NCBI RefSeq assembly: GCF_016907875.1
Contig: NZ_JAFBCU010000001.1
Location: 1,116,001 to 1,180,000 of the forward strand
Length of the DNA: 64,000 nucleotides
From: Arthrobacter roseus
GTDB lineage: Bacteria; Actinomycetota; Actinomycetes; Actinomycetales; Micrococcaceae
Direction: 5' to 3'
The position numbers and the translations under genes are program-made. Shown here piece after piece: positions 25,446 to 26,936 of this stretch. The number at the start of each line of letters is the position of its first letter. Position 1 is the stretch's first letter. The notes under the pieces are model-generated. The model ran no database searches, was not told the origin of the DNA, and saw only the letters and a list, made by a program, of their open reading frames with translations.

Positions 25446-26141
25446 CTACACCTTCAGCTTCGCGTAGACCACGTAGTTGTAGTCCCACAGACCTGTGGAC
25501 TCCTGGTACCCGTCGCAGGTGATGAGGCGTAACTCCGATCCAGGAGTGTTGCCGTACACCTCGAGCGTGGGGAAGTCGTCCTTCTCATATTGGACGCCCT
25601 TGTCGACGACGAAGACCGCAGTGGATCCGTCATCACGCGGGACCTTAATCTCATCGCCTGATTTGAGCTCGCGAAGTTTTGCGAAGACGCCGGGGCCCCC
25701 GCCGGTAGCGTTGACGTGGCCGAGCATGACTGCGGGACCGCGTTCTCCGGGGGTTGGTGACTGGGTGTACCAGCTGGCAGGGGACCCCGGCCCTTCGGTG
25801 GGTACTTCCAGCGTGCCGTCCGACCGCTGGCCGAGGTGTACGAGTTCGGACTGAACACCGATGGTCGGGATGACGAGCGATGCCGGTTTCGAGGCTTCCA
25901 TGACCGAAAGCTCGGGTGTCTTTGTGGGTGCCGGCGCTGCCTGCGTGGCGGTGGGGCTAGCGCTGGGGGATGCCGACGTCGCCGTCGGGCTTGGCGTGCT
26001 GGTTGAGGATGGGCCGTTGGACGGCGGGGCAGTGGTCGCGGCGTCACCGCAGCCCTGGAGACCCAGGGCTGCGGTGACGACGAGGGCAACCGCCGCGGAT
26101 GTCCGAAGACCTCCGCGGCGACTGCGATCATGATTCGTCAT
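25446..26141 (-). CDS. Class F sortase-like protein with a lipobox
   Basis: 231 aa. The N-terminus ends in LQGC (Cys31), so it may be a lipoprotein and not the usual membrane-spanning sortase. A Ser/Thr/Pro/Ala-rich linker (about 35-77) leads to a sortase barrel. His142 (LGHVN) and Cys209 (RLITC) match the catalytic His and Cys. The Arg normally found on the strand after the Cys is missing: the matching stretch is LWDYNYVV and no Arg occurs after Cys209. The gene lies 15 bases after a CHRD protein with a C-terminal anchor, its probable substrate. Sortase fold is certain enough; activity is open. Confidence 0.85.
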   Translation of the reverse strand: MTNHDRSRRGGLRTSAAVALVVTAALGLQGCGDAATTAPPSNGPSSTSTPSPTATSASPSASPTATQAAPAPTKTPELSVMEASKPASLVIPTIGVQSELVHLGQRSDGTLEVPTEGPGSPASWYTQSPTPGERGPAVMLGHVNATGGGPGVFAKLRELKSGDEIKVPRDDGSTAVFVVDKGVQYEKDDFPTLEVYGNTPGSELRLITCDGYQESTGLWDYNYVVYAKLKV

Positions 26142-26156
26142 GAATACGAACCTGGA

Positions 26157-26936
26157 CTACGCGTTGTCGCTGTTACGACGACGGACCACGTAGGTGCCGC
26201 CTGCGGCTGCGGCCAGAACGAGACCGCCACCAAGGGCGATGATGCCCAGAGCGTTGGAGTCGCTGGCGCTTTCCATGGCAACACCGGTGTCGGCGCCACC
26301 TTCAGGCATGGCGCCCATCTGCGATGCGGTCAGTACACCACATGCAGCCGGTGCCGTAGCTGCCAGGGGCAGCTCCGGAACCAGGCTGGACTTGGCCTCA
26401 GCAGCTTCCTTGCTCAGCGTGGCCGGGTCCAGACCGTGAACCACAACAACGCCGGTGCCAGCCTTGAGAGATTCCATGGTTTCTGGGTTCATCTCGAACG
26501 TGCGCTCGTAGGTGTAAGCGCCGCCCATCCCAGCCAACTTAAGATCGGTGGCCGTGCTGGTGTCCGTTGCCCCGCTCGTGGAGAGCGTGGTTCCGATCTC
26601 ACCGTAGGAAGGCTGGCCTTCAGGGGTGTCAATAACACCGTCGCCATTGGTGTCCGCTTCCGGAGTGGGGCAGACACCGTTGCCGGCGATGTGGATGTGC
26701 TGAACGTGCGGGTAAGCAGCGTCATTGAACGTTTCCGCGAGACCGGAGACGTTCAATTTGACGGTTGCCTCGTTGCCGTTCAGGTCAACCGTGACCTGGC
26801 CCGTTGCACTGCTACCGTTGAGGGCGTTCAATTCGCCCTGGAACGAGCTGTCAGCGGCCATTGCAGGCGAACCTGCCATGGCGATGGCCCCGAGGGCCAG
26901 CGTGGGTACTGCAAGGTAGCGAAGTGACTTCTTCAT
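26157..26936 (-). CDS. Secreted CHRD-domain protein with C-terminal membrane anchor
   Basis: 259 aa from the ATG at 26936 (AGGAGG 9 bases upstream). A signal peptide ends near AMAADS. The CHRD domain (about residues 30-170) shows ETFNDAAYPHVQHIHIAG and VVVVHGLDP with conserved His. The C-terminus has a sorting-signal layout: MPEGGADTG (ending at residue 218), a spacer, a hydrophobic helix and VVRRRNSDNA. LPXTG is absent; GADTG (26283-26297) resembles the LAXTG motif with Gly first. The adjoining sortase supports wall attachment. The role of CHRD domains in bacteria is unknown. Confidence 0.85.
   Translation of the reverse strand: MKKSLRYLAVPTLALGAIAMAGSPAMAADSSFQGELNALNGSSATGQVTVDLNGNEATVKLNVSGLAETFNDAAYPHVQHIHIAGNGVCPTPEADTNGDGVIDTPEGQPSYGEIGTTLSTSGATDTSTATDLKLAGMGGAYTYERTFEMNPETMESLKAGTGVVVVHGLDPATLSKEAAEAKSSLVPELPLAATAPAACGVLTASQMGAMPEGGADTGVAMESASDSNALGIIALGGGLVLAAAAGGTYVVRRRNSDNA

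Follow-up and report, generated by a model that had tools for sequence, protein, structure and literature searches.

A class F sortase with asparagine at the catalytic arginine position, and its GGADTG-tagged CHRD neighbour, in Arthrobacter roseus

The window, the whole stretch of 64,000 nucleotides from Arthrobacter roseus that was analysed, carries adjoining genes for a class F sortase and a secreted CHRD protein. The two genes form a genuine pair of enzyme and presumed substrate, conserved and inherited together, and of a type already known. The sortase has Asn where other sortases have their catalytic Arg and, judging from aligned sequences, this is the norm for class F and no departure by this enzyme. 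Across class F as a whole, signals of the GGADTG type go with Arg-less sortases. It is therefore likely, and we hold this with good confidence, that an Asn-type class F sortase with a dedicated neighbour substrate anchors GGADTG proteins to the cell wall, although cleavage and anchoring are themselves steps that we infer. The two genes are:

25446 to 26141, minus strand: sortase gene, encoding a class F sortase of 231 aa that is a predicted lipoprotein (PF04203, NF033748, AF2 fold)
26157 to 26936, minus strand: presumed substrate gene, encoding a secreted CHRD/SOD-like protein of 259 aa with a C-terminal sorting signal (domain common to 112/152 partners)

The CHRD-protein gene starts with the ATG at 26936, has AGGAGG upstream, and is followed by the sortase gene after a gap of 15 bp (26142-26156), just the spacing given in an earlier sequence-only reading of this DNA. 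A promoter and terminator scan of the locus found none. The same reading had described a motif, helix and basic tail at the end of the CHRD protein, and this layout has been corroborated:

26283 to 26309, minus strand: sorting motif MPEGGADTG, residues 210-218 (NF058571, conservation)
26184 to 26249, minus strand: hydrophobic part of the signal, residues 230-251 (sequence, alignment)
26175 to 26183, minus strand: basic tail RRR, residues 252-254 (sequence, alignment)

The tail has no LPXTG or LAXTG pentapeptide and has GGADTG instead. It scores 30.5 bits against the NCBIfam model NF058571 (GVDTG_CTERM, 'GVDTG sorting domain'; cut-off 29) and 34.7 bits in a genome search, which means that the motif already has a curated model. 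The likeness to this model lies in G-x-DTG, the helix and the basic tail; the difference is GGADTG in place of GVDTG. A literature search found no paper describing the GVDTG motif, and its matches to 'GVDTG' were unrelated sequences. Compared with LPXTG, the tag has Gly for Leu and Ala for Pro.

Does a signal of this kind accompany such sortases elsewhere? Sortases were gathered from two sets of genomes, 149 sampled within the family and 119 within the phylum, and a partner was defined as a same-strand neighbour with G-x-x-x-TG, a hydrophobic segment and a basic tail. Such a neighbour adjoins 90 of the 126 sortases with both Arg205 and Asn222 (31/126 have none), 3/28 other sortases with Asn222 and 0/9 with Arg222. 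Among the ORFs around these sortases the signal occurs in 97/1696 on the same strand versus 1/1722 on the opposite strand. The rule was fixed on the genome set and then applied to 80 named loci from a genome-contig scan seeded with a close alignment (Arthrobacter, Kocuria, Rothia, Pseudarthrobacter and others). There, 69 of 76 sortases have a co-directional neighbour that fits, against 1/1303 on the opposite strand. A homologous pair with a normal Arg and LPXTG would have told against the pairing and was looked for among these loci; all 76 distinct sortases have Asn, and an LPXTG partner was found for 0 of the 76.

Co-occurrence counts with NF058571, which are independent of the G-x-x-x-TG rule, point the same way. 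An above-cut-off GVDTG signal is present in 30 of the 149 family genomes and a class F sortase in all 30 of these, versus 73/149 overall (p=1e-11); of the 49 signals, 33 have a class F gene no more than 2 kb away. In the phylum sample the corresponding figures are 8/8 versus 17/119 (p=3e-8). The non-LPXTG motif thus tracks with the Arg-less sortase. Differences between motifs also track differences between sortases (Mantel r=0.72, permutation p=0.0005), although co-inheritance alone could yield this, and the link between Arg205 and the motif is inseparable from phylogeny, a co-evolution test on independent tree pairs having no power. The earlier suggestion that enzyme and motif are matched therefore stands as a class-wide pairing, but not as two oddities of one locus. 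Some sortases with Asn222 have Val, Thr or Ala at 205 (L062, L185, L186, L190, L194, L196, L197) and neighbours with AVNTG, VVNTG, LAATG or GVPTG, which are possibly a second sorting code.

Three sortases are encoded in the A. roseus genome: that of the window, a paralogue (L003) and a class E-like enzyme with Arg (L001). The paralogue has its own CHRD partner with an MPEGGADTG tail. A third GGADTG protein is a stand-alone cupredoxin (PF13473, 40.2 bits; L004:1489-2415(-), G000:C1:2933748). LPKTG and LARTG proteins are also encoded, separately, and are presumably served by the class E-like sortase. Elsewhere the partner heads are CHRD-like in 112/152 cases, the others being Excalibur, DUF4397, ice-binding or AMIN-like. 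Stand-alone tagged proteins of related genomes, part of them assigned by eye from their sequences, are CHRD, cupredoxin or Excalibur-like; tagged cupredoxin-like proteins also occur in L286, L292 and L294. The proposal of one enzyme for one substrate is ruled out by the two pairs and the tagged cupredoxin in this genome, together with the varied heads elsewhere.

The sortase itself is readily recognised. It matches Pfam Sortase PF04203 with 80.2 bits and falls on the borderline of NCBIfam NF033748 class_F_sortase (165.8 bits, cut-off 166; 166.6 in a genome search). With this family it shares sequence, a lone catalytic domain and Asn at the Arg position; scoring right at the cut-off is its only departure. 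An AF2 model of residues 70-231, built on a 95-sequence alignment, has a pLDDT of 95, and every one of its closest solved folds is a sortase. Contigs labelled Vibrio cholerae strain 35D (WNZI01000027.1, L229; WNZI01000031.1, L235; WNZI01000019.1, L263) also encode class F sortases, with 66-69% identity to the window's enzyme, so a wrong label or contamination by Micrococcaceae DNA is probable for that assembly. The residues on which the discussion turns are:

25716 to 25718, minus strand: His142, catalytic (H in 165/167 aligned domains)
25515 to 25517, minus strand: Cys209, catalytic, end of strand b7 (C in 162/167 aligned domains; AF2 strand)
26049 to 26060, minus strand: lipobox L28-Q-G-C31 (sequence; fits a PROSITE-type pattern)
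25476 to 25478, minus strand: Asn222, position of SaSrtA Arg197, in strand b8 (pairwise and profile alignment, AF2 strand)
25527 to 25529, minus strand: Arg205 (Cys-4, strand b7), candidate replacement charge (R in 127/155 Asn222 sequences; Thr in 5/5 Arg222 TCGG sequences)
25581 to 25583, minus strand: Lys187, start of the b6/b7 loop, candidate replacement charge (K/R in 95% of 155 Asn222 sequences)

His142 and Cys209 had been noted as retained, and both are indeed conserved across the 167 aligned sortase domains, the window's own included. The lipobox that had also been remarked on is real at residues 28-31, but it is not unusual, being found in 81 of the 126 sortases with Asn222 and Arg205.

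The absence of an Arg after Cys209 is confirmed too. A pairwise alignment with S. aureus SrtA (SaSrtA) places CDGYQESTGLWDYN without gaps on CDDYNEKTGVWEKR, so that Asn222 falls on Arg197, and the class profile match likewise puts it in that column. The strand-b8 catalytic position of His-Cys-Arg sortases is thus filled by Asn in this enzyme; according to a 2026 paper all sortases carry His-Cys-Arg (PMC13257024). The sequence-only reading had taken Arg to be the family norm, and this is where it went wrong. Over the 167 aligned domains the Arg197 column has Asn in 155, Arg in 9 and a gap in 3. Because Asn occupies 155 of the 164 ungapped positions, and the change from Arg to Asn in actinobacterial class F has already been stated (PMC6998099, citing Malik and Kim 2019), the missing Arg is no oddity. 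Four of the nine Arg residues belong to outgroup sortases and five to one class F-like clade with 'TCGG...DR' (L065, L066, L067, L198, L199). Members of this clade have Arg in the catalytic column and no GxxxTG neighbour; they may represent the state before the Arg-to-Asn change, or a reversal of it.

What might make up for the lost charge? Lys187 and Arg205, the latter already singled out in the sequence-only reading, may be the displaced positive charge, a fair hypothesis drawn from the alignment, since both are conserved with Asn222 and mostly absent where Arg222 is kept: in the five Arg222 TCGG sequences position 187 is basic in two and Arg205 occurs in none. However, the tree needs only about two changes between Asn and Arg, and the association of the charged residues therefore rests on very few events.

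The following sequence of events is proposed. The signal peptide would export the substrate, and its C-terminal helix would hold it in the membrane. The lipid-anchored sortase, using Cys209 and His142, would cut GGAD-T|G between Thr and Gly. A thioacyl enzyme would form, and the protein would then be passed to a wall amine, for example in the lipid II bridge, as the likely acceptor; both cleavage and transfer are modelled on LPXT|G (PMC5148588). SaSrtA with LPXTG (class A) shares the fold, His and Cys, the motif-helix-basic layout and the conserved TG, but it has Arg197 instead of Asn and an N-terminal helix instead of a lipid anchor. Asn222 would replace the catalytic Arg and most likely hydrogen bond to the substrate backbone, and Lys187 and Arg205 may restore the charge. 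In class E the P3 carbonyl accepts a hydrogen bond from the active-site Arg (PMC5148588). By analogy, an Asn amide could act as the donor. Citrulline in place of Arg197 in SaSrtA is reportedly active, which would fit such a role for Asn222.

Could the enzyme cleave GGADTG but mainly hydrolyse the intermediate, releasing the CHRD protein from the membrane rather than anchoring it? Acyl transfer could suffer without Arg, the Arg-to-Ala mutant of F. alocis SrtA lost cleavage activity (PMC13257024), and the computed results fit transfer and hydrolysis alike. However, the motif, helix and basic tail form the layout of wall-anchored proteins, and the Excalibur, ice-binding and cupredoxin heads are plausible surface proteins. 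Release instead of anchoring is thus unlikely, if the best of the alternatives.

The GGADTG proteins might instead be handled by the Arg-bearing class E-like sortase, leaving the class F enzyme with another job. That sortase is present in the genome, and phenotypes in A. missouriensis come from SrtE only. Yet every genome with an above-cut-off GVDTG signal has a class F sortase, the signals adjoin class F genes, and the LPKTG and LARTG proteins are available for the class E-like enzyme. Handling of the tag by the class E-like enzyme is accordingly improbable. Class E sortases such as S. coelicolor SrtE1, with LAXTG, are also actinobacterial and have a dedicated non-LPXTG motif but, unlike the window's sortase, they keep the Arg (R329) and lack a GxxxTG signal. 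Least credible of all, and rejected, is a degenerate and inactive pseudo-sortase that merely binds tagged proteins: the absence of one of the three canonical catalytic residues speaks for it, but a decaying gene would not keep His and Cys in nearly all of 167 domains, and Asn in 155, across a phylum, nor retain an adjoining substrate.

Anchoring of GGADTG proteins by the class F enzyme remains the preferred reading, and two observations from the literature count against it. Cutibacterium (Propionibacterium) acnes SrtF, called class F and the sole biochemically studied enzyme of that name, cleaves LPXTG, unlike the pairing described here. Its active-site peptide, AIVIC-WDYVK as taken from primers (PMC7451113), has IC-WDYVK and does not resemble TCDG/TCGG; a DNA pattern for the peptide had no match in the genome contigs. 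The other observation is that deleting all four class F genes of A. missouriensis gave no phenotype (PMC13251363). In that study two srtF neighbours were set aside as being without an LPXTG-type pentapeptide (PMC13251363). In line with the rule, both combine a signal peptide, a C-terminal helix and a basic tail with the absence of an LPXTG-type motif.

The head of the presumed substrate offers a clue to what may be displayed:

26337 to 26879, minus strand: CHRD/SOD-like domain with flanks, residues 20-200 (invariant H77, H80, H82, H167, C89, C199; EF-hand-like loop 95-106)

The original CHRD call falls short by sequence (17.6 bits against Pfam PF07452, below the cut-off of 24.1; a match at E<=0.01 in 9/19 sequences of the A4 set) but is supported by the modelled fold. 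The AF2 model has a pLDDT of 92.4, and its Foldseek matches in the PDB are nearly all Cu,Zn-SODs (TM ~0.45); CHRD domains have been described as SOD-like (PMC13382577). H77, H80, H82, H167, C89 and C199 are invariant in 60/60 sequences of the CHRD-like family. In the model strand 4 holds H80-x-H82, strand 7 has H167 at its end and strand 8 contains C199, and the order of H80, H82, H167 and the Cys pair is the SOD order of copper ligands and disulfide. The model thus suggests a Cu,Zn-SOD-like fold that retains the three copper-ligand histidines. By the model, the apparent likeness to Cu,Zn superoxide dismutase takes in a Greek-key fold, HxH, a later His and a Cys pair; the difference is that no zinc-loop ligands were recognised in the head, where an EF-hand-like loop (95-106) takes their place. 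The chordin CHRD domains share the SOD-like fold but have lost the metal histidines that are kept here. An hhalign comparison of the CHRD profile with one SodC gave no significant match, and there is no Sod_Cu match in the A. roseus genome. On the model, copper binding by the head is plausible, and the CHRD protein is possibly a wall-displayed copper protein. Since the anchored heads of this genome are two CHRD/SOD-like domains and a cupredoxin, the system probably displays putative copper-binding proteins on the wall.

A broader reading is offered tentatively, as possible rather than probable. Class F in Actinomycetota would be an Asn-based branch of sortases with a relocated charge (Lys187/Arg205) and its own Gly-rich G-x-x-x-TG code, separate from the LPXTG/LAXTG of the same cells, and the Micrococcaceae type would put largely copper proteins (SOD-like CHRD, cupredoxins) on the wall.

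Although class F sortases occur widely in Actinomycetota, recent papers describe their physiological roles as unknown (PMC13251363) and state that no function has been designated for them (PMC6998099). The adjacency rule points to candidate class F substrates and to their motif, which is what this analysis adds beyond the published Arg-to-Asn change. The question of the Asn can be reduced to a simple mutant experiment, and the display of copper proteins is a concrete suggested role for a bacterial CHRD family.
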